From Saccharomycopsis phalli (lineage: Eukaryota > Ascomycota > Saccharomycetes > Ascoideales > Saccharomycopsidaceae), in contig CP073218.1 in assembly GCA_020342235.1 (NCBI GenBank), positions 248,001 through 312,000 of the forward strand: a stretch of DNA of 64,000 bases, given 5' to 3'. Below the pieces are notes generated by a model. The model saw only the letters and a list, made by a program, of their open reading frames with translations. It did not search any database and had not been told where the DNA came from. A program made the translations under genes and the position numbers. How positions within the stretch are numbered: the stretch's first letter is position 1; the number at the start of each line of letters is the position of its first letter. Of the stretch, positions 4,579-64,000 are shown one piece after another.

Positions 4579-5808
4579 ATGATTCGCTCGCTTTACCTTT
4601 TATATTGTTTATTGGCAGTTGTGTCCTCTGCATCACTCAACAAAAGAGATTCATGGGGTCCATCATCAGCCTACCAGCCTCTTGATTACAGAACTGTTAT
4701 GGATAACCAAGGTGCCACTGGTAATTACTTTGGAAAAGGAAACCCAATCCGTGGAGTTAATCTTGGTAATTGGTTGGTTATTGAACCTTGGATGAACGAC
4801 AATAGTTTTATACCTTCCAATACGCCAGATGAATTCAGCTTTTGTGGATCCTTAGGGTATGAACAGTGTGGTGAACAGTTGGAACAACATTATGCTTCCT
4901 TTATTACAGAAAGTGACTTCCAGCAAATGCTGTCCATAGGTCTTAATGCGGTCAGAATTCCGATTGGATACTGGGCTTTTAAGTTGGAAGGCCCGGACAA
5001 ATTTCACTTGGGAAATCAGGAAAAATATTTACAGTTGGCTCTTGGATGGGCTAGAAACTACAATATGAAGGTTTTGATTGATTTGCATGGTGCTCCAGGG
5101 TCCCAAAATGGCTATGATTCTAGTGGTCATAAAAACTTTCATGACTGGAGCGGCTACAGCAATATGGATGAAACTAAGCAGATTTTGAATTACATTTTTG
5201 CCAAATATGGAGGAAACACATACGGGGATGTTGTCATGGGAATTGAGCTTGTCAATGAGCCTTTGACATCTGGGCAAGGGTCCATTACACAAGACCAACT
5301 TAGCAACTGGTACTCTGGAGCTATTGACCAAATTAGAAATCTTGTTGGTAGCAGACAACGTGTGGTTTTGCAAGATGGATACACTGGGCAAGGCTCATGG
5401 AATGGGAAGCCATACAATAACGACAATGTTTGGTATGATACCCACTTGTATGTGTTGTATGCCAGCGAATACCAACTGATGCCATTTGAACAAAAGATTC
5501 AAAATGTATGCGAATGGGGACAACAACTTGCTTCTAACCAATACCCTACTTTTGTTGGAGAATTTACAGCAGCATGGGACTCTACTAACAATAACCCAAT
5601 GTGGCATTCCATTAACACCTGGCCTGATTCGACCAAAGCACAGACTAAGCGATTTGTTGAGGCTCAATTTAATGCTTTTGAGAAAAACTATGGATGGTTT
5701 TTCTGGAACTGGAAGTCCAACTCCGATCAATGGAGTTTCCAGGCCTTAGTCGCCAATGGAATTATTTCCTCGCCAATCACAAATAGACAGTACGGTGATT
5801 GTCGCTAG
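4579..5808 (+). CDS. EXG1: Secreted exo-1,3-beta-glucanase, GH5 (EXG1/XOG1 family)
   Basis: Secreted glycoside hydrolase acting on wall beta-1,3-glucan. The 409 residues are normal for the family. A hydrophobic signal peptide (about residues 1-18) is followed by a KR site (residues 22-23) suited to Kex2. GH5 landmarks are visible: GVNLGNWLVIEPW, AVRIPIGYWAF, VLIDLHGAPGSQNG, acid/base Glu227 in GIELVNEP, nucleophile Glu328 in FVGEFTAAW, and WFFWNWKS near the C-terminus. No GPI signal is present, so it is probably released into the wall or medium. It lies just upstream of a second GH5 gene in the same direction, so the two look like a tandem duplication. Residue 118 is encoded by CTG at a position that is Ser in S. 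cerevisiae and C. albicans exoglucanases as I remember them. Confidence 0.93.
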   Translation: MIRSLYLLYCLLAVVSSASLNKRDSWGPSSAYQPLDYRTVMDNQGATGNYFGKGNPIRGVNLGNWLVIEPWMNDNSFIPSNTPDEFSFCGSLGYEQCGEQLEQHYASFITESDFQQMLSIGLNAVRIPIGYWAFKLEGPDKFHLGNQEKYLQLALGWARNYNMKVLIDLHGAPGSQNGYDSSGHKNFHDWSGYSNMDETKQILNYIFAKYGGNTYGDVVMGIELVNEPLTSGQGSITQDQLSNWYSGAIDQIRNLVGSRQRVVLQDGYTGQGSWNGKPYNNDNVWYDTHLYVLYASEYQLMPFEQKIQNVCEWGQQLASNQYPTFVGEFTAAWDSTNNNPMWHSINTWPDSTKAQTKRFVEAQFNAFEKNYGWFFWNWKSNSDQWSFQALVANGIISSPITNRQYGDCR

Positions 5809-6330: not shown

Positions 6331-8082
6331 ATGGAATTAATGAGATTAGCACTATTGTCGTTTTGGCTTTCTCTGATTGGAGCATATCCAATCAATTTTG
6401 AAAGGAGAGACGTCTTGACACTTACGAGTAACGTCATGTTTACATCTACACACACAGTGACACTAACTCCTGGGGCCCTTCTTGCAACAACTGATATTGA
6501 TAATATTGCAGGTACCGCCGCAGGCGTTACCACAAACCCTGCAGCAGCGGCTAATGCTACTCCGAGTACTGACTGTACTACAAGTAGTGAGTCCTCTGAG
6601 GGTAGTAATGGTTCTACAAGTAATATTGCTTCAACAAGTGGTGATGATCCTACAAATACTGGTGTTTCTCCAAGTAATTCTGCTTCTACAAGTAGTCCAA
6701 CTTCTACAAGTAGTAATGGTTCTACAAGTAACATTTCTTCAACAAGTGGTGATGACCCTACAAATACTGGTATTTCTACAAGCAATTCTGCTTCTACTGG
6801 TAGTACTGCTTCTACAAGTAATTCTGCTTCTACTAGTAGTACTGCTTCTACAAGTAATTCTGCTTCTACAAGTAGTGCAGGTTCTACAAGTACTAGCACG
6901 GGGGATAGCTCTACAACTAGTCAAACCAGCTCAAACACTACTTCTCCTGCTAATAATTCTATCGAGGACTTTTCATCTTCAGGTTACTACACTTTCTCTA
7001 AAAATGGCATCAAAGGAGTAAATCTTGGTGGCTGGCTCCTGTTAGAGCCATGGATCAACACCGATCTTTTTTCCAAAACCAATTTCCCCGATGGAAATAT
7101 TCCAGATGATGAATTTAACTTTGTTGCCTCATTAGGACAAGATAAAGCGGGGGAATTGTTAGAGGCTCACTACAGTAGCTGGATCACTGCGGATGATTTC
7201 CTGCAGATGAAAGGGTACGGTTTGAACGCAGTGCGTATTCCTATTGGATATTGGGCATTTAGATTAATGAGTACAGATAAATATTACAAAGGAAATCAAG
7301 AAAAGTACCTTCAACAGGCCATTGGTTGGGCTAGGTCAAATGGTATCAAAGTTGTGATTGATTTACATGGTGCTCCCGGATCTCAAAATGGTTACGATTC
7401 TAGTGGGCATAAGAATTTTCATGATTGGAACGGCTATGATAACATTGATCAGACCAAGCAGATTCTTCAGGGAATTTTTGATACTTACGGTGGAGATCTG
7501 TACAAGGATGTTATTATTGGTATCGAGATTGTTAATGAACCGTTGGTTGGGGGTAATGGAGGAGTCACGATGGATTTTTTGAGTGGTTTTTATAGCGATG
7601 TGGTTAATCAGGAGAGCAGTACAAAGCAAAATATAATTTTGCACGATGGTTACCAGTACCAAGGGGCGTGGCAAGGTAAGAGCTATAATTCACACAGCAA
7701 TGTGCTTTACGATACACATCTCTATATGCTCTATGATTCAGGGTATCAAGCACTTAGCTATGATGACAAAATCAAACAAGTGTGCAATTGGGGTGAACAA
7801 ATTGGTAGTTTGGGATATGATGAAATGGTTGGAGAGTTTACTGCTGCTTGGGATTCAGACAGCAGCTCCATCTATACACAAAAAATTGACCAATGGGGAA
7901 GTACAGATAAGGATAACTTACGGAAATTCGTGGAAGCACAGTTCACAGCTTTTGAAAAATCAGTGGGGTGGTTCTTTTGGAACTGGAAGATGGGAAATTC
8001 CGATCAGTGGGACTTTCAGGTGCTCGTGAAGAATGATATTATTCCTCAACCATTGACTGATCGAAAATTCGTAACATGTTAA
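6331..8082 (+). CDS. GH5 exo-1,3-beta-glucanase paralogue with Ser/Thr-rich N-terminal stalk
   Basis: 583 residues. A signal peptide (about 1-19) and a RR site near 26-27 precede a long Ser/Thr/Asn-rich segment (about residues 85-210) made of irregular TSNSAS/TSSTAS-type repeats that is likely heavily O-mannosylated. The C-terminal about 360 residues form a complete GH5 domain: GVNLGGWLLLEPW, AVRIPIGYWAF, acid/base Glu403 in GIEIVNEP, nucleophile Glu502 in MVGEFTAAW, and WFFWNWKMG. The domain is closely similar to the upstream glucanase, including a shared NGYDSSGHKNFHDW segment, so it looks active and derived by duplication. The stalk may hold the enzyme in the wall or space it from the membrane; that is inference. 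No C-terminal GPI signal is seen. Confidence 0.9.
   Translation: MELMRLALLSFWLSLIGAYPINFERRDVLTLTSNVMFTSTHTVTLTPGALLATTDIDNIAGTAAGVTTNPAAAANATPSTDCTTSSESSEGSNGSTSNIASTSGDDPTNTGVSPSNSASTSSPTSTSSNGSTSNISSTSGDDPTNTGISTSNSASTGSTASTSNSASTSSTASTSNSASTSSAGSTSTSTGDSSTTSQTSSNTTSPANNSIEDFSSSGYYTFSKNGIKGVNLGGWLLLEPWINTDLFSKTNFPDGNIPDDEFNFVASLGQDKAGELLEAHYSSWITADDFLQMKGYGLNAVRIPIGYWAFRLMSTDKYYKGNQEKYLQQAIGWARSNGIKVVIDLHGAPGSQNGYDSSGHKNFHDWNGYDNIDQTKQILQGIFDTYGGDLYKDVIIGIEIVNEPLVGGNGGVTMDFLSGFYSDVVNQESSTKQNIILHDGYQYQGAWQGKSYNSHSNVLYDTHLYMLYDSGYQALSYDDKIKQVCNWGEQIGSLGYDEMVGEFTAAWDSDSSSIYTQKIDQWGSTDKDNLRKFVEAQFTAFEKSVGWFFWNWKMGNSDQWDFQVLVKNDIIPQPLTDRKFVTC
6595..6950 (+). repeat. Degenerate short tandem repeats encoding the Ser/Thr stalk
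   Basis: Imperfect units built on TCTACAAGTAGT / GCTTCTACAAGTAAT (4-5 codons) repeat through this stretch, with one longer duplicated segment (STSGDDPTNTG appears twice). Such tracts commonly vary in length between strains. Confidence 0.85.
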
Positions 8083-18829: not shown

Positions 18830-21445
18830 ATGAGAGTGGCTGGATTATTGACTCTGGTGGTTGCTGTAGTGGCTTCCAACGTTATTGATGGTTACACTAC
18901 CAGTACTGGGACCGGGGAGCTTAGCCCTTCTGATTCTACTTATGCTGCTCCTTCTATTGAGCCTCTTCAGGCTGACAACGATGGTCACGACTCGGACATC
19001 ATTCTGAATAAAAAAACGCTAAGGCTCAAAGGTGATGTATGCTATTCACAAGAATTTCCTTTGACCAAGGGTGTCAATGTTGGGTTTGTCTTGTTGAGAA
19101 ATACCAAGGGCCAGAATGGGGTGCAGTGGTACTACAGTACAGATGGTCTTGATATTTTCAAGCTCTTGAAGGTCAAGTTCCGCCATAATGGAGACATCTG
19201 GCAGAGTATTTATCACTTCAAAAACGGATTTGTGTATTCATACTTTTCCAACAGCTACTCAGATGTTACTAGCCAAACTTTTCAATTCTCTTACGAGAAG
19301 GATGACCAGACACATACATTGTCTACCAACTGTAATGGAATTGGAAACTGTACTCCAATGATATTACCCGAAAGTAATCCGTGCGACCCACCTACAACTT
19401 CGACTACTACACATTCTTCTACCACCCAAGTTTCAGATGATGTGAGTTCAAGCTCTTACAGCACTGAATCAGATATTGCATCTGTTGAAACGAGCTTTGT
19501 TACAGTGACCGAGTCGGTTTCTTTTACAGTTACTAATCCTTCTCCTGTGATTGTTGTTAATCCTGGATCTATAACGGTTACCGAATCAATCCCAGTAACA
19601 GAGACTGAATCAATTGAAGTAACAGAGACTGAATCAATTGAAGTAACAGAGACAGACTCAATCCCAGTAACAGAGACAGAGTCAATCCCAGTAACAGAGA
19701 CCGAGTCAGTTGAAGTAACAGAAACTGAATCAACCTCAGAAACAGGGACCGATTCAATCCCAGCAACAGAGACCGACTCAATCCTGATTATGGAGACCGA
19801 ATCCGAACTGTCAACGGATATCGGCAGTACTGCTATTATTGCCGGTTCTACCTCATCTAACAGCATCTATCCAGACTTGGACAGAGAAGTGCCAGCTTCT
19901 AATTATCCGAAAGATTCCTCTTGTCCATCTTGTATGCCAATCATATATGCTGTCACGTCGAGCAGCAATCTTGGTTTCTACATAAGTAACTCCTCGCAGG
20001 AAGCTAACGAGTTCACAATCAAATGGTTTTTTGCAAACACTTCAAACATTCTAATCTCGGGTAGCGAGATGAAATTCAGACGGGGTCAAGAAGCTTGGCT
20101 TAACATTTTTGATTTGCAATGGAATAATGGGTTCTTTTACACCTGGACAGGCACGTGGACCGATATTGTGGAGGAAACTTGGGAATTTACTTTTAAAGGC
20201 CGAAACCAAGACAGAATCTATTTTAGCAGTAACTGTTCTGCAAATTCCCAAATAGGAATTGCTTGCAACCCGATTAACTTACCTTCCAGTCCATCAAACT
20301 ATAGTCAACTCTCGGCGAGCAGCTCTACTTCAAGTATTACCAGTGTTGTTACAACTACAATTAGTGGAGTTGTTACTTCATACACCACAGTTTGCCCGCT
20401 CACTGATTCTGATGAGGCCACTTTTACTACTGATGTTGTCACCAACGTCATTAGTGGAACCCAAACGAATTACGCCACGTTCTCATTATCCGGATATCAA
20501 GCTGGAGGTGCTCAACAGAGCTCGGACGCCATGTTTAGCGGATATGAAACAAGCTACACTACCACGCCTGGTTTAACCGGTACACCAGAAATTCCTTTGT
20601 CTACTCCAGCTAGTTCCACTTTAGACGCTGTCGCGTCGACTGTGTATCCCCAAGTTGAGTGCAGCGACTGTAGTCTGACGGAAATGACAAGTTCTACAGC
20701 AAATTCCCCTTTAATTGGCTCTTCTTCAACGCAGCCATCCTATCCTAATACATTTGCAGGTCCTGGTGTCGATTCTAATAATTCTATTGGTATGGATACC
20801 GAGTGCCCTAGTGGCTGTCTGAGCAGTTTATCCTCGGAAGTTACAGGAAGTCTAAGCTTGTCAGGTACACCAGATACTTCCGACACTTCCGATAGCCCAG
20901 ATACTTCGGATAGTCCAGATAGTTCAGATACTTCGGATAGTCCAAATACTTCGGATAGTCCAAATAGTCCAAATAGTCCAGATAGTTCAGATACTTCGGG
21001 TAGTTCAGATACTTCGGATAGTCCAGATAGTTCAGATACTTCGGGTAGTTCAGATACTTCGGATAGTCCAGATAGTTCAGATACTTCGGGTAGTTCAGAT
21101 ACTTCGGATAGTCCAGATAGTTCAGATACTTCGGGTAGTTCAGATACTTCGGATAGTCCAGATACTTCGGATAGTTCCGAAAATTCAAGTTTATCAGAAA
21201 GTCCTACAGTCACTTCAGACTTTTCATCACAGACACTATCTGATTTTGCTTCTATAGGCGCATCTACTGGTCTCTCTGAGTTCTCTACGACGTTTAGCGT
21301 GGTACCTTCTGCGTCTAGCAACTTCCATTTTTCAAATGCAAACACTACCGCTAGTTCAGTCGCCAATAATTTCAGCGGTGCTGCTTCTAAGATATTGACT
21401 GCTCCTTCACTTTTGGTCGCGATGGCAGGCATATTGTTACTCTGA
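18830..21445 (+). CDS. GPI-type cell-wall adhesin-like protein with duplicated ectodomain
   Basis: 871 residues. A signal peptide (about 1-15) is followed by two copies of an about 110-residue domain, near residues 67-182 and 360-485. They share N-x-GF, WYY/WFF, KFR-x-G-x-x-W, NGF-x-Y, a Ser/Thr-Asp pair before an F/W-x-F-x-Y/F strand, S-x-NC and C-x-P-x-x-LP. Between them lies an array of 8-residue PVTETESI-like repeats. After the second copy come flocculin-type motifs (VVTSYTTVCPLT), a Ser/Asp/Pro repeat block, and a hydrophobic C-terminus (SKILTAPSLLVAMAGILLL) that looks like a GPI signal. The architecture is that of yeast adhesins and wall mannoproteins. The aromatic-rich ectodomain is reminiscent of the Flo11 domain in style, but I cannot show that it belongs there. 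Confidence 0.85.
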   Translation: MRVAGLLTLVVAVVASNVIDGYTTSTGTGELSPSDSTYAAPSIEPLQADNDGHDSDIILNKKTLRLKGDVCYSQEFPLTKGVNVGFVLLRNTKGQNGVQWYYSTDGLDIFKLLKVKFRHNGDIWQSIYHFKNGFVYSYFSNSYSDVTSQTFQFSYEKDDQTHTLSTNCNGIGNCTPMILPESNPCDPPTTSTTTHSSTTQVSDDVSSSSYSTESDIASVETSFVTVTESVSFTVTNPSPVIVVNPGSITVTESIPVTETESIEVTETESIEVTETDSIPVTETESIPVTETESVEVTETESTSETGTDSIPATETDSILIMETESELSTDIGSTAIIAGSTSSNSIYPDLDREVPASNYPKDSSCPSCMPIIYAVTSSSNLGFYISNSSQEANEFTIKWFFANTSNILISGSEMKFRRGQEAWLNIFDLQWNNGFFYTWTGTWTDIVEETWEFTFKGRNQDRIYFSSNCSANSQIGIACNPINLPSSPSNYSQLSASSSTSSITSVVTTTISGVVTSYTTVCPLTDSDEATFTTDVVTNVISGTQTNYATFSLSGYQAGGAQQSSDAMFSGYETSYTTTPGLTGTPEIPLSTPASSTLDAVASTVYPQVECSDCSLTEMTSSTANSPLIGSSSTQPSYPNTFAGPGVDSNNSIGMDTECPSGCLSSLSSEVTGSLSLSGTPDTSDTSDSPDTSDSPDSSDTSDSPNTSDSPNSPNSPDSSDTSGSSDTSDSPDSSDTSGSSDTSDSPDSSDTSGSSDTSDSPDSSDTSGSSDTSDSPDTSDSSENSSLSESPTVTSDFSSQTLSDFASIGASTGLSEFSTTFSVVPSASSNFHFSNANTTASSVANNFSGAASKILTAPSLLVAMAGILLL
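19571..19800 (+). repeat. 24-bp tandem repeats encoding 8-residue Thr/Glu/Ser units
   Basis: About nine imperfect copies of a unit translating to S-I-P/E-V-T-E-T-E lie between the two ectodomain copies. Codon differences between copies show it is not newly expanded. Confidence 0.9.
20872..21177 (+). repeat. Ser/Asp/Pro/Thr repeat block with four identical 45-bp units
   Basis: Short 9- and 15-bp elements (gatagtcca, gatacttcg, gatagttca) are arrayed throughout. From 20981 to 21160 they form four perfect 45-bp copies (20981-21025, 21026-21070, 21071-21115, 21116-21160). Perfect identity suggests recent expansion or gene-conversion-like homogenisation. The multiple of three keeps the frame whatever the copy number. 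Confidence 0.95.
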
Positions 21446-22250: not shown

Positions 22251-23483
22251 ATGAACTCTAAAGTTATCTTTGAGATCCTTGCTGCTTTGTCTTTGGCATC
22301 AACCATAACTGCTTCCGAAGCAGTCACTCTTACCGATGCTCAGTTGGTGACTCAAATCGGAGATGGCCAAATCCAAGCTACGTTTGTGCCTTCGTCTATG
22401 CCATCTTCTTCTCTTGATGCTGTTGCTACTACCTTTAGTGACCTTCCAGACACTACCGATTCTTTACCAGACACAACTCCAACTGATCAATCAGACATTA
22501 CTTCCACTGATCAACCAGACATTACTTCCACTGATCAATCAGACATTACTTCCACCGATCAATCAGACATTACTGCCACTGATTCTTCACCTGACACCAC
22601 TCCTACTGATCAATCAGACATTACTTCCACTGATGACACGCTTGGTACCACTATGGCTGAGTCAACTGAGTCAGAGGAAACCGTTTTTGTTACTGACTTT
22701 GTCACTTCTGTTTCCACTACATTCACCACTGTGTGCCCTTGTGAAGCTTCTGAGACTGCTTCCTGGAGCTCGTCAGAAACCATGTTCACAAGTACTCCAT
22801 CGGTGGCCACTCCACAGACTGTCCATGTTACTGCTACTACCGTTTCTGTCACCACAGCAACAGAAACTTCCTGCCAGTTCGACTGTATGCGTTCCGCCAC
22901 ATTGTCCGACGAATCTCCTGCCCCAACTACATCTGATGAAACTGTCTTTGTCACACACTACGTCACTAGCGTTTCTACCGCTTTCACTACCGTGTGCCCA
23001 TGCGAAGCTACTTCAGGAGCCAGTTTGCTTGGAACTATTTCTACCAGCGCACCATTCGATTCTTTATCTCAAGACTCATTCACTTCAACTGATGACTCAT
23101 TCACTTCAACTGATGACTCATTTGCATCAACTGATGACTCATTCGCATCAACGGACGACTCGTTCACTTCATCTGTTGATACATTCACTTCAACTGATGA
23201 CTCTTTCTCATCTCAAGAAACTGCTCCAGTCACTAGCGAAGGCCCATCTCCTACCTTTGAAGCTTCCTCTGGATTTTCTACAACTGAAGAGCCATCCTCT
23301 ACACTCAACGCCGTCTTTAGCGTATCAACTCCATCCACACCTGCTTCTAGCTCGTTTGCTTCAGTACCTGGATTCAACACTTCTGGAAACTTCAGCCTGG
23401 CATTTACCGGTGGTGCCTCAAACACCTGGAAGACTGTTAGTGGTGCTGTTGTGTTAGGTGCAATCTCCGTCTTTTTTATTTAA
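22251..23483 (+). CDS. GPI-anchored Ser/Thr-rich cell-wall protein
   Basis: 410 residues. A signal peptide (about 1-21) leads into Ser/Thr/Asp-rich sequence with TDQSDITS repeats (about 78-130). Two copies follow of a conserved VTSVSTTFTTVCPCEA-type module (about 145-170 and 232-255), then FTSTDDS repeats, and a C-terminal NTWKTVSGAVVLGAISVFFI that fits a GPI signal. Modules with VTxxTTVCP are common in yeast wall mannoproteins. There is no large globular ectodomain, so a structural or spacer role in the wall is more likely than ligand binding. It sits in the same direction just downstream of the adhesin-like gene, and both carry the TTVCP element, so they may share ancestry. Confidence 0.85.
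   Translation: MNSKVIFEILAALSLASTITASEAVTLTDAQLVTQIGDGQIQATFVPSSMPSSSLDAVATTFSDLPDTTDSLPDTTPTDQSDITSTDQPDITSTDQSDITSTDQSDITATDSSPDTTPTDQSDITSTDDTLGTTMAESTESEETVFVTDFVTSVSTTFTTVCPCEASETASWSSSETMFTSTPSVATPQTVHVTATTVSVTTATETSCQFDCMRSATLSDESPAPTTSDETVFVTHYVTSVSTAFTTVCPCEATSGASLLGTISTSAPFDSLSQDSFTSTDDSFTSTDDSFASTDDSFASTDDSFTSSVDTFTSTDDSFSSQETAPVTSEGPSPTFEASSGFSTTEEPSSTLNAVFSVSTPSTPASSSFASVPGFNTSGNFSLAFTGGASNTWKTVSGAVVLGAISVFFI
22480..22640 (+). repeat. 24-bp tandem repeats (TDQSDITS units)
   Basis: Four near-identical head-to-tail units, then a short spacer and a fifth copy. In frame with the wall-protein gene. Confidence 0.9.
23079..23208 (+). repeat. 21-bp tandem repeats (FTSTDDS units)
   Basis: About six units of 7 codons with Thr/Ala variation (FTSTDDS, FASTDDS), in frame with the wall-protein gene. 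Confidence 0.9.
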
Positions 23484-51536: not shown

Positions 51537-52984
51537 TGTATTATATTTTTATCTATATTTGGATATACGAAAATAGTTGTTGATGATCTCCACGATTCTT
51601 AATTATGCTGAGAGTTTTTTTTAATATATTAATTTTATATAATTTAGATATTGTAATATGAAGGCGAAGTTATGAGAAAGATAAAGAACGGAGTCGAGAA
51701 GGTATGATGCCTCTTTCTATCACAGAAATGCCTTGGGATTGAGACATGTCAAATGCGCTTGGTAAGTCGCGGTTCATCACATTATGGTCCTTGCAGAGAA
51801 TTTCAATAAACAATACATGGCTAATTCTCAAATATTATGGGTTTAATGTCGGATATCTAATAATAATAGACTAGGAGTCTGCTATCATGAGACCAGAAAT
51901 ATCTGTCTTGGTTGTACAAGACCTAATTGGGGAGTCCTCAATTCTTCTGAATTGGCCCAAAACTTTCCAAGTGAGACTCCCATACATCAATTCTTGGTTT
52001 ATAGGTTCTATACAAGTGGTATCAATGGCGGTGATGAGTCAACTACACTATTCCGATGTATTTATGAGTTAATAATAAAGCAATTCGTCTTATTAGCAAT
52101 TTATCTTATAGGCCAGTTGTCGGGTATGCAATCTGCGCAATTAGTAATAATATTTGTTCAGGCCTATTGCTATACTAGGCTCCCATTGGAGATTGCTACT
52201 ACGCCGACTATGACTAAGGATGATGACGCCATTTATGAGCGGCAGGAAACCCTTAATTGGCAATTGTACTAAAGAAAATCGCAGTACTTTGGTTTACATC
52301 ATACAAAATGTTTGATAAGGCAATTCGTCTTTATGAAACTTGAATTGCCTATTTTGAGCAAGTCTATTGAACTGCTTTATTTCTGTAGCATTTTGGCCCA
52401 GTTTGAAGAGCACGATCTAGGCAAGATTCATGCAAAGTCAACAACCAGGTACGATGAAAATTTTCATTTACCCGTACAGATGGTATATAGTGACACTGTA
52501 TGATAATACTTTAGCTTGATCATAGCCTGTCTGAATCTACATATTCATGCAACTGTCGGTTAACAACATAGCGCAGGATAGATTCAGATAACTGTTCTGG
52601 CGTGTCTACCGCACAAATTAGTAAAGGATCTCTCAATTGGAAGAAGCAAATCTCGTTATACCTCTACCAGCATGTTTTACTAAGACTCGCCCCACCAGCT
52701 CTATATCTGGATCGGTCTAGATTCAAAATGAGTTTGTTATCAGGGCACATACATACTTTGAGACACTGAATTGATGGTTGAACACGCGGCCATTCAAAAG
52801 TAGCTAACGTACTAACAAGAACTTTAATCTCAGCCACATGGGATTGCGTTGTCTAGAGATCGAGGATACGGTAAAAGCATGAAATTCTACATGTTTCATT
52901 ATCTATTTGATGGATTCGAATAAGGGAACCAAAATTTCACTAAGGACGATAATTATTTGCTCAATCTCAATTTATTGCATCCTC
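51537..52984. other. 1.45-kb convergent intergenic region
   Basis: Lies between two converging 3' ends, where no promoter is needed, so its length is notable. Short plus-strand frames at 51952-52272 (106 codons) and 52312-52503 (63 codons) have no recognisable domain. A 12-mer, gcaattcgtctt, occurs twice exactly 240 bp apart (52080 and 52320). It may hold a decayed gene or an ncRNA; nothing is proved. Confidence 0.45.
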
Positions 52985-54334
52985 CTATAAGCTTTTCTCA
53001 ACGATTTTCAGTTTTTTTTTCTTGGCAGGGGTGAATTCATTCAAGGCCCTAATAAATTTGTTTGCATAAATCAAGTTTTCATACTTTTTTAATTCAAATT
53101 CCTTGGTCTTAAATATATCAACCATCTTTTTAAAGAAACCAATCTTTTCGGATCTTTTTTTGTTTTGCAATTCGTTCTGTAAGCTGTTATACTGCAACGC
53201 CTCATGCACCTCCGCTTGATAGGTGTACTCATCTCCTGAATTAATAGTGACTCCCAGCACATTCTCATTTTCATTGAGCAATCGTTTTACTAGATTTAAC
53301 CTATTTTGATAATTTCCAGAATTTAAGAGTCCCACATCAATAAGAATTCTTTCATCCTTTACTTTATCTAGCATGGACTCCATCTGATTGGTTGAAATGT
53401 TGACACTGTTCGAAATTTGAAGAATAATAAATGTATCCTCATTACCGATGGTAGAAATTATTGCCACTTGACCTAATTTTGTGATAGACAAAAAATTATG
53501 CGGATGTTGGCTGGATATTATCGCCTCCATTGCCTTGTCAATTTTATACATGTAACCAGCAAAGTCTGCAGTTAGATCTAGATCCAGGGTGTGGTATCCC
53601 ACAGGATAAGAAACTCCTGATACCAACTCTCTATGGAGCTGTGACTCGACCAAGGTTGACGATACATTTGCCATACAATATATATCAGACAAATACTGGG
53701 GAGTGATTGTGTCGGCCAATTCTCCCGCTATAGGAATTATCTCACTCAATTCATATAGCAAAGACCTGTAAAACGGGATTCCTTGTTTGATGTCGTGACT
53801 ATCATCCGTAATATTCAAACCTGGCTTGGCCAAATTACACTTCATTAGCAATACTAGTTTGTCTCTTTCAATCTTGCTATTGTTACAGTAGATTTCTCGA
53901 AGACCACTAGGTAAACTCTTTATGGAATGATTGTAGAACACATTAATATGATCGGTATTATCATCTGACATAGAATTCAACCATTCGGCACAAGCCTTTG
54001 CTTGAATAGGCGAACTCAAGTACTGAGGCCCCGCAATCACAATCAACGCATGGCTGTCTCGATGGATAATTTTGGTTAAGAAATCCCTTGTTTCAATGAT
54101 TTTCTTAGTTAGTTCATCAGAAATAGGATACAGAAATCTTTGAATAACTTCCGGTTGAAGTACCGTAACCTGACCTTGTTCTATATATGTCAGAAATTAA
54201 CTAAGATACAAGTACAACTAACCGCAAAGATTTAATGGAGATCCATTTCCAAAGCCAACAGTGGAGTTAGATGTTGATTTTGGATAATCCCACGCAAAGA
54301 GCCTATTCAAACTAAATTCAGAAGTGATTGTCAT
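52985..54334 (-). CDS. DAHP-synthase-like pseudoenzyme (Aro3/Aro4 relative), two exons
   Basis: The fold is that of type I 3-deoxy-D-arabino-heptulosonate-7-phosphate synthase, the first shikimate-pathway enzyme. Matches to Aro3/Aro4 include ALIVIAGP, IPIAGELADTITPQYLSD, VESQLHRELVSGVSYPVGY, LSITKLGQVAIIST and GNEDTFIIL. Yet active-site residues are replaced (E. coli AroG numbering): Cys61 to Gln in GPQYLSSP, Arg92 to Lys, Arg99 to Gly, Arg165 to Thr, Lys186 to His, Arg234 to Gln, His268 to Leu and Glu302 to Asn. The segment with Asp326 (ITDACIGW) is gone and the C-terminus is a new basic tail. Lys97 remains. Exon 1 is 54223-54334 and exon 2 is 52985-54180, with an intron at 54181-54222. The product is 435 residues (Aro3/4 are 370). 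The frame is intact, so it is probably expressed with a non-catalytic role. Confidence 0.82.
54181..54222 (-). other. 42-nt intron of the DAHP-synthase-like gene
   Basis: Minus-strand donor GTTAGT, branch-like TTTCTGAC and acceptor TATAG. It is phase 1 (TGC G / AA CAA). Joining restores a frame whose exon 2 begins EQGQVTVLQPEVIQRF, which matches the conserved region just before the GP motif of DAHP synthases. The donor (GTTAGT instead of GTAAGT or GTATGT) is not typical. Confidence 0.75.
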
Positions 54335-62408: not shown

Positions 62409-64000
62409 TTATTTATGGCTTCTTTTAATAAACTTACCAAATTTATGCTTCTTTTCTTCCTTTTTTCCTGCCACCTTATCATTCGAGTTATACTTAACGT
62501 TGCTAGGATTATTAAACCCTGGATGACTAGGCTGTGGATTGCCTCGCGAGTAACCCTGGCCTTGTTGATGTGGTTGTTGATGTGGTTGATGATGTGGTTG
62601 TTGATGTGGTTGATGATGTGGTGGGGGTGGGGGTGGTGGAGTTTGCCTGATTCCACTATCAAACAAATACTGTGGTGGTTTTTCGGCGTTTTGCCGTTGT
62701 AATTTATAAGGGATTAATGGGTTTAGCTCCTTAGGGTTGCTATTTGTCAAATTTTGAACATTGAATATAGTCTCATTTGGTAAGAGAATATTTTCACTAC
62801 CCAAGTAAATGTCCTTGTTAAGACTCTTGCTTAGGTCATGTACTGCTTTAACTTCACCCGTAGTGATTCCTCCTATAATATAAAGAAAGATCTTCTGGCG
62901 CTTGGAATTTGCAGACGCAGACTTGGCCGCTGACCAGCTAGGTATTAACTTCTGGTTTCTGAGTGAAGTAGTAGAGGCCGGGGTCAGTAAGCTTGTCTCG
63001 TCTGACATTAAGTCATTGTATGCCTCATTAGCAAATTTAAACTCTCGTAGTTCGGCATTGTTATTTCTGGAGAGTTCTTTAATGATTTTGACAATTGCAG
63101 GTTGATAACGGGACGTTAAGCTACCAGAATTGTCGATTTCTCCGTATTGGATATTGTGTCCCTTCTTTTGATGATGATGTCCATCTGATTTCATGACATC
63201 TCTGTTGAGAATGCTCAAGTTTTTGAACACTTGAATGTAGCCAGGAATCTCACGCTCACCAACGCCCATAAAGTGCATCATCTTGGTTAAGTCAGACTCT
63301 AAAATTCCATCCTTTTTGGTTAATGCAAAGATCAAAAGCACACGAATCCGGTACTCCACATCCAAACCCTGCATGTTGTTTAAGAAAACCATCATATCAT
63401 CCACCAAATACAGATACTTCAACCGCAGCCCCTCATGGTCTGTCAGATCTGCCATGAAATTCTGCTCCAAGTTCACCATATCAAGCAATTTAAAGTCTTT
63501 GTTGATACCAAGAATACGCTCAATGAGCTGCTTGTGCATATACAAGAGCCGACGATCCTCGTCAAATTCCGCTGAGTTGGCCATAATATGCAACATGTCA
63601 GACGTGTTTTTCGCATCCATTCGGTTTACCAATAACGGATTGTCGGCAATTAACTGCTTAATGTCCTTATCAAGTTCATCATATGCACTAGCAATATCGA
63701 GGAATCTGTATCTGTCAAAGTACTTGTCTGAGCCTTGCTCACTGAGCTTTGACAACTTTCTCAACTTAGTTCCTCGCTCAGATTGTGAGGAGTAGAAGTA
63801 GATTTGGTTCTTCGAGTTGAATTCTCGCTTGGGAATATAATCATACACCATTGACTCATAAGTGAACTCATGCATAAATATGCTCAAGAGGTCAAGCGAA
63901 CGGTCGGCAACAAGCAACACTGATCTGTCGCTTGTGGAGGTGTCCGGGTTGAATCCAGGATTGCTTCTCAAATAATCATCAAGTCTTTCTTGTAATTTAG
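62409..64000 (-). CDS. SEC1: Sec1/Munc18 exocytosis protein Sec1, 5' end outside window
   Basis: Controls SNARE assembly of secretory vesicles with the plasma membrane. Only the C-terminal about 530 residues are inside; the frame is open through the right edge. Typical SM motifs are present: LLVADRSLDLLSIFMHEFTYESMVYD (domain 2), LLIFALTKKDGILESDLTKMM (domain 3), and KIFLYIIGGITTGEVKAVHDLS (C-terminal domain). A region rich in Pro, His and Gln (62522-62640) and a basic tail ending KFIKRSHK follow, beyond where the family core ends. Yeast Sec1 also has a C-terminal extension that binds SNAREs. Three CTG codons (63411, 63426, 63444) fall at hydrophilic positions of the alignment with Munc18 as I recall it. 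Confidence 0.93.
   Translation of the reverse strand, partial: KLQERLDDYLRSNPGFNPDTSTSDRSVLLVADRSLDLLSIFMHEFTYESMVYDYIPKREFNSKNQIYFYSSQSERGTKLRKLSKLSEQGSDKYFDRYRFLDIASAYDELDKDIKQLIADNPLLVNRMDAKNTSDMLHIMANSAEFDEDRRLLYMHKQLIERILGINKDFKLLDMVNLEQNFMADLTDHEGLRLKYLYLVDDMMVFLNNMQGLDVEYRIRVLLIFALTKKDGILESDLTKMMHFMGVGEREIPGYIQVFKNLSILNRDVMKSDGHHHQKKGHNIQYGEIDNSGSLTSRYQPAIVKIIKELSRNNNAELREFKFANEAYNDLMSDETSLLTPASTTSLRNQKLIPSWSAAKSASANSKRQKIFLYIIGGITTGEVKAVHDLSKSLNKDIYLGSENILLPNETIFNVQNLTNSNPKELNPLIPYKLQRQNAEKPPQYLFDSGIRQTPPPPPPPHHQPHQQPHHQPHQQPHQQGQGYSRGNPQPSHPGFNNPSNVKYNSNDKVAGKKEEKKHKFGKFIKRSHK
62522..62640 (-). repeat. SEC1: His/Pro/Gln-rich codon repeats in the SEC1 tail
   Basis: Short CAC/CAA/CCA repeats give units such as HHQPHQQP after a run of six or more Pro. 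The tract lies in the non-conserved C-terminal extension and is probably length-variable. Confidence 0.9.

Follow-up and report, generated by a model that had tools for sequence, protein, structure and literature searches.

A diverged DAHP synthase paralogue in Saccharomycopsis phalli with a lost active site and a largely retained feedback pocket

RESULTS

Locus and gene model

The window analysed here is a stretch of 64,000 nucleotides of S. phalli (contig CP073218.1, positions 248,001 to 312,000), and positions below are counted from its first letter. A DAHP-synthase-like gene lies on the minus strand at 52985–54334 between a 6-phosphofructo-2-kinase gene and a cyclin gene, and the surrounding genes are of yeast type. 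No gene was recognised in the 1.45 kb between the kinase gene and the DAHP-synthase-like gene (51537–52984); the longest frame there, of 141 codons, is without a Pfam match, and no Rfam family was found at gathering score. Elsewhere in the window, two adjoining glycoside hydrolase family 5 genes lie on the plus strand (4579–5808 and 6331–8082). Two other adjoining plus-strand genes (18830–21445 and 22251–23483) have weak matches to flocculin-type-3 and PIR repeats and probably encode cell-wall proteins. A Sec1-family gene at 62409–63875 on the minus strand looks truncated only through the window edge. Its frame crosses that edge and continues to ~64802, and truncation of this otherwise ordinary gene was ruled out.

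Translation with code 12 instead of the standard code raised the bit score of the leading family for seven of ten proteins (BOP1, BAR_4, cyclin, Spo7, Sec1, DAHP synthase and cellulase), lowered it for two (PAP2 and Na_Ca_ex) and left that of 6PF2K unchanged. Moreover, at both CTG codons of the genome's own Aro3-like gene the other aligned synthases are without leucine. CTG is probably read as serine in S. phalli, judging from these comparisons, and such a pattern would place the genome in the CUG-Ser clade. In the protein described here the serine reading alters 4 of 435 residues, none of which is a site residue discussed below.

The homologous part of the gene is a minus-strand open frame at 52985–54196, 403 codons from stop to stop. 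Homology to DAHP synthases sets in at about codon 12 of this frame, whereas its first ATG is codon 76 and would leave an ORF of 328 residues; hence the start must either come from an exon further upstream or have been lost. Removal of a predicted intron of 42 nt (54181–54222) gives 435 residues and a stop from an ATG at 54334, which agrees with the view of an earlier note on this DNA that the frame is intact over 435 codons and requires an intron. In this model exon 2, with the stop codon, spans 52985–54180 and contains the homologous region, and exon 1 spans 54223–54334 (37 codons and one base). The predicted intron (GTTAGT...CTGACATATATAG) has the donor GTTAGT, a branch-like CTGAC that ends 8 nt ahead of the exon, and the acceptor TAG.

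The intron is plausible on its sequence features. The pattern used to search for it, picked only after the intron had been seen, occurs once in the window and at least once in 7 of 100 shuffles, and the same scan lists nine alternative GT–AG pairs that leave the frame open as well. With exon borders judged by eye, the ACT1 intron of this genome has the form GTATGT...TACTAAC...CAG, and a 46-nt intron with a likewise short distance from branch to acceptor is present in an actin-related gene; thus short introns do occur in S. phalli. Exon 1, which was joined through the GT–AG scan, is without clear homology and has a weak codon score (0.010 over 37 codons), and is the least certain part of the gene model.

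Family membership and origin

The protein matches the DAHP synthase family PF00793 (DAHP_synth_1) with E = 1.2e-13 and 51 bits, above the cut-off of 25.5. The match to TIGR00034 is stronger (E = 1.8e-39, 135.5 bits) and lies under the equivalog cut-off of 173.2, so it does not identify a functional equivalog. A family profile of our own, built without the window protein, gave E = 1.2e-46 in a search space of 1 and matched two domains, residues 12–86 and 130–323 in exon-2 numbering (hmmsearch). Judged by these profiles, the 435-residue protein is a clear but remote member of the type I-alpha DAHP synthases (Aro3/Aro4). The earlier note had proposed homology to Aro3/Aro4 from the letters alone and had named an HMM search as a check; both profile matches agree with it.

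The genome (14.1 Mb, 8 contigs), searched by family and by protein, holds three family members. Two are orthodox, an Aro3-like copy (L002) of 371 residues and an Aro4-like copy (L001) of 368 residues, and all listed ligands are present in both; no member was found in these 14.1 Mb beyond these two and the window gene. The window protein is 28% identical to the Aro3-like copy over 364 columns and 31% identical to the Aro4-like copy over 316 columns. When it was used as a query against collections of prokaryote and virus contigs, 17 and 1 pattern matches respectively were obtained, of which none was confirmed, and absence of relatives from these collections is uninformative about yeasts. Two loci, one on a bacterial and one on a viral contig, have stops in the frame of their DAHP-synthase matched spans, one stop in L028 (301–1341) and two in L097 (301–1371), and both were left out of the alignments.

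In a tree of 20 rows, with 12 bacterial rows taken from the 79 that were usable, the window protein groups with the Aro3 rows, with a support of 78/99 that is not decisive. AU tests rejected neither grouping with Aro4 (p-AU 0.30), nor grouping with the genome's own Aro3 alone (0.37), nor a position outside the six other fungal rows (0.25). The end branch of the window protein has a length of 10, which we take to be the upper limit of the tree program. From these data we lean towards an origin from an Aro3-type paralogue.

Loss of the active site

Sites are given in AroG numbering and residues of the window protein are numbered on the spliced product. The metal ligands are Cys61, His268, Glu302 and Asp326, as the earlier note had them, and Arg92, Arg99, Thr100 and Arg165 are counted as substrate residues on our own assumption or that of the note. 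Three MAFFT modes agree that the four ligands are replaced by Q90, L322, N351 and N373, and that the substrate residues Arg92, Arg99, Arg165, Lys186 and Arg234 are replaced by K151, G158, T213, H234 and Q292. Lys97 (K156) and Glu143 (E191) are kept in the same alignment. The codons of Q90 (54023–54025), L322 (53327–53329) and N351 (53240–53242) lie on the minus strand; the first was placed by alignment, phmmer and the family profile, the other two by alignment and the family profile. At positions 61, 268 and 302 this register agrees with that of the profile built without the window protein. Moreover, the window protein lacks a Cys next to GPQ and a His next to its DVGLLNS stretch.

The register is uncertain in two regions. 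For AroG 92–111, phmmer and a large MAFFT alignment differ from the three MAFFT modes, and a predicted strand at 114–120 (exon-2 numbering) favours the register of the latter. The Asp326 segment lies in a replaced C-terminus that is not reliably alignable, and the large MAFFT alignment gives D360 (exon-2 numbering) as an invariant residue, taken as the Asp326 column. Neither region, as aligned, rescues a four-ligand site. For PEP and E4P binding, Arg92, Lys97, Arg99, Arg165, Lys186 and Arg234 are K, K, G, T, H and Q, with only Lys97 identical; the first three assignments depend on register, and Lys97 is probably retained. The earlier note had listed all four ligands and five of these basic residues as lost. 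This stands for Cys61, His268 and Glu302, which are replaced in all alignments examined, and for Arg165, Lys186 and Arg234; at Asp326, Arg92 and Arg99 the register is uncertain, and Arg92 to Lys is a conservative change.

Of the 14 catalytic and metal positions chosen here, only 2 match the genome's own Aro3-like protein, whereas among the other near-invariant positions 43 of 88 do so (p = 0.02). Near-invariant here means at least 95% in 81 sequences, namely the two orthodox copies and 79 bacterial loci (of 80, one having been left out for a stop). PMC9529685 gives residue lists in C. glutamicum AroF numbering, which were mapped to AroG in the present analysis; the catalytic list becomes K97, E143, G163, A164, K186, R234, H268 and E302. 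On these alignments the window protein cannot be a normal DAHP synthase.

Fold and C-terminal tail

The beta/alpha-barrel region occupies 53237–54163 on the minus strand (spliced residues 44–352), as placed by profile, AlphaFold2 and Foldseek. An AlphaFold2 model from 82 sequences has a pLDDT of 75.6 and a pTM of 0.74. It shows ten strands, which we assign to eight strands of the barrel plus the beta6a/6b hairpin, and confidence is low for most of the chain beyond about residue 324 in exon-2 numbering. The best 50 of 1352 Foldseek matches (E <= 10) are DAHP synthases. The 82-row alignment consists mostly of active enzymes, so that the fold call is partly borrowed, and with a three-row alignment the model was poor (pLDDT 39). 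From the model we infer the same barrel fold for the window protein. Under the favoured register it lacks a loop of ~10 residues and carries ~30 inserted residues ahead of beta2.

The last part of the protein, spliced residues 353–435 (52988–53236, minus strand), is a new lysine-rich tail that stands in place of the last barrel helix and the Asp326 segment. The profile match stops at exon-2 residue 323, so that almost all of the tail lies beyond it; the tail aligns poorly and is modelled as low-confidence helices. Residues 356–435 have a pI of 9.7, and the tail ends in AKKKK[L/S]KIVEKSL, which we take to resemble a nuclear import signal; that the tail could be a nuclear signal is speculation. 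The structural model that the earlier note had named as a further check returned a predicted barrel. Its description of the protein as full-length holds for the barrel but not for the missing loop, the insertion and the last ~80 residues, which are the new basic tail.

Feedback pocket

A segment at 53477–53713 on the minus strand, delimited by alignment and the residue lists of PMC9529685 and PMC10349828, keeps most of the feedback-inhibitor pocket. The set in the window protein is D194, T195, Q199, D203, V227, S228, F267, S269, I270 and K272, corresponding in order to D154, T155, Q159, D163, L187, S188, F217, S219, V220 and K222 of Aro3. The nine published pocket residues, mapped here from the list of PMC9529685, are M147, Q151, D155, L179, S180, F209, S211, V212 and K214 in AroG. 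Seven of these nine are identical to the genome's own Aro3-like protein and the other two are similar (L to V and V to I); the adjacent Asp (D154 of Aro3, D194 here) is identical as well, which makes 8 of 10. Catalytic residues threaded through the same module have been lost (Gly163, Ala164, Arg165, Lys186 and Arg234), with the exception of Glu143.

Retention in the pocket (8/10) exceeds that at catalytic positions (2/14) with p = 0.003; with the strictly published lists the comparison is 7/9 against 2/8 (p = 0.057). However, the pocket does no better than the other near-invariant positions of the same segment (21/32, p = 0.47), and hence its reading as a Phe pocket is suggestive and not proof. 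The segment may have been retained for folding or subunit contact and not for Phe.

The N-terminal lid residues, which we assume to be Asp6, Asp7 and Ile10 of AroG, are placed differently by the alignments: a gap, a gap and L in one MAFFT mode, T, S and T in the other two, and E, Q and V in a further register, which alone has an acidic residue at 6 and puts Val at the place of Ile10. None of the four alignments retains Asp7, and the lid is not clearly kept as far as these registers tell.

According to PMC10349828, Aro3 binds Phe with a Kd of 31.4 µM, each Aro3 subunit has its pocket completed by the N-terminus of the other, Q159 and K222 are tied to Phe binding by simulation, and a mutant of D154 indicates that this residue matters for Phe inhibition although it lies outside the cavity. 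The same text, citing earlier work, names S219 as the specificity residue, with serine in Phe-inhibited and glycine in Tyr-inhibited yeast enzymes at this position. All four residues (Q159, K222, D154 and S219) are identical in the window protein, and S269 at the place of S219 is, on sequence only, what is expected of a Phe-type pocket. The pocket, the hairpin and a probable dimer contact appear to have survived as one unit, within which ligand binding and subunit contact are inseparable here.

Constraint on the frame

Neutral decay was simulated from the present Aro3-like gene of the genome under a simplified HKY-like model with intergenic composition. The standard code was used for stops in the frame and code 12 for substitution patterns, and Aro3's own change since the duplication is ignored. 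None of 2000 runs was free of stops at d = 0.5, and the same held for d = 0.7, 1.0 and 1.5; mean identity at these distances was at most 39%. With d = 0.1, 52 of 2000 runs had no stop, and none was free of both stops and indels. The window frame is open at ~30% identity, and long neutral drift is thus excluded. Moreover, 72 of 225 substitutions (32%) are conservative, against a neutral mean of 21% and a maximum of 30%, a level reached by none of 689 neutral runs of similar identity, and identities were as strongly clustered in one of these 689 runs.

The codon score of the gene is 0.060 per codon. Scores of the 23 neighbouring ORFs run from −0.01 to 0.24, and six of these lie below that of the gene; intergenic sequence has a mean of −0.133 over 396 pieces, with one piece at 0.237. 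The simulations, and not dN/dS, argue for selection through most of the gene's history. The gene combines a dead site with a frame maintained under constraint, the latter gauged by simulation only, as expected of a regulatory pseudoenzyme. The suggestion that the protein is catalytically dead and the gene is not a decaying pseudogene is therefore supported by residue losses, the open frame and the substitution pattern, and a very recent loss would be compatible with them.

DISCUSSION

Our tentative reading, which we prefer while holding it to be somewhat short of probable, is that the gene is an old yeast DAHP-synthase paralogue, perhaps of Aro3 type, that lost catalysis and was kept as a regulatory pseudoenzyme that binds Phe, pairs with Aro3, or both. 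Phe or a related aromatic compound would bind in the kept pocket, and the protein would join Aro3 (or Aro4) in a mixed oligomer and change the feedback response of the working subunit; the two orthodox copies are present in the genome as possible targets. Since the window protein keeps the pocket and no clear lid, a mixed dimer would have one Phe site, in the window protein, closed by the lid of Aro3, and the pocket of Aro3 itself would be left without its normal lid, which could tune feedback. A more specific version is a dedicated feedback subunit of the shikimate pathway, dead and with a Phe pocket, whose mixed oligomers reshape the Phe inhibition of Aro3 and which possibly shuttles to the nucleus by its basic tail. 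The allosteric sensing and the catalysis of one enzyme would then be divided between two paralogues; we regard this version as unlikely. The idea of the earlier note that the protein is a regulator or an aromatic sensor has become more specific and more plausible through the kept pocket, but it is not demonstrated. No Gcn4 site was found upstream of the gene over 647 bp; one is present in the 800 bp examined for the Aro4-like gene and none in the 505 bp for the Aro3-like gene, and this promoter comparison is uninformative.

The dead paralogue might instead be kept for a job without aromatic amino acids, for example as a scaffold or nuclear protein that uses the basic tail, with the kept segment serving the fold and dimer contact. 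The ~80 new basic residues with an end that we take to be like an import signal fit this view, as does a pocket retained no better than its neighbourhood. However, the residues of Aro3 that contact or select the ligand (Gln159, Lys222 and Ser219) are also kept, and we consider such a job rather unlikely.

The gene may also be at the end of its life, long constrained and now unexpressed or recently released, with the open frame as a remnant. Its very long end branch, its low codon score (though 6 of 23 neighbouring ORFs are lower) and a donor, GTTAGT, unlike the GTATGT of ACT1 are in accordance with this. Stops arise early in the neutral simulation, so only a very recent release would be compatible, and this explanation seems improbable to us.

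TIM barrels often change reaction, and the equivalents of Lys97 and Glu143 (K156 and E191), kept in a reshaped pocket on a barrel scaffold predicted to be intact, could serve a new substrate. However, the metal site and the phosphate-binding arginines are gone, nothing indicates a new catalytic set, the favoured register has the missing loop and the insertion ahead of beta2, and Lys97 itself depends on register. A changed reaction is quite improbable. A working, divergent DAHP synthase with its ligands in another register is extremely improbable: the positions of Asp326 and Lys97 do depend on register, but the alignments examined have other residues at the places of Cys61, His268 and Glu302, and neither the Cys beside GPQ nor the His beside DVGLLNS is there.

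With the regulatory pseudoenzyme as our preferred reading, the protein can be set beside known systems. It shares with S. cerevisiae Aro3, which is Phe-inhibited, and with the genome's own Aro3-like copy the predicted barrel, the beta6a/6b hairpin and a feedback pocket with the Phe-type Ser219, Gln159 and Lys222 together with Asp154. It differs from them in its replaced metal ligands and most PEP residues, the missing loop, the insertion before beta2, the new basic C-terminus and the predicted intron. Aro4, which is Tyr-inhibited, and the own Aro4-like copy have the same fold and belong to the same family, whereas Aro4 has Gly at the Phe/Tyr switch, where the window protein has Ser, and the window protein has lost the catalytic site. 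Reuse of shikimate-pathway enzyme domains as regulators is known from the QutA/QutR-type quinate regulators of filamentous fungi, which are derived from AROM and not from a DAHP synthase.

The trypanosome AdoMetDC prozyme is a catalytically dead paralogue that forms a pair with the active copy of its biosynthetic enzyme (PMC6221367). The likeness would be one by proposal, because the enzymes are unrelated and the pairing of the window protein is itself proposed. No DAHP-synthase pseudoenzyme was found among the literature matches listed (titles and beginnings of abstracts, with incomplete coverage of yeasts). Pseudoenzymes are known as such; one that derives from a DAHP synthase and whose effector pocket has survived appears to be a new form. 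Public yeast genomes may already contain orthologues that have passed without comment.

Aromatic amino acid synthesis begins with DAHP synthase, which is routinely targeted in yeast engineering and in yeast is usually treated as a system of two isozymes, Aro3 and Aro4 (PMC10349828). If our reading is true, a third, dead member with its effector pocket kept would mean a further level of regulation that engineers and physiologists overlook. It would also show cleanly how an allosteric site can outlast the active site that it served.
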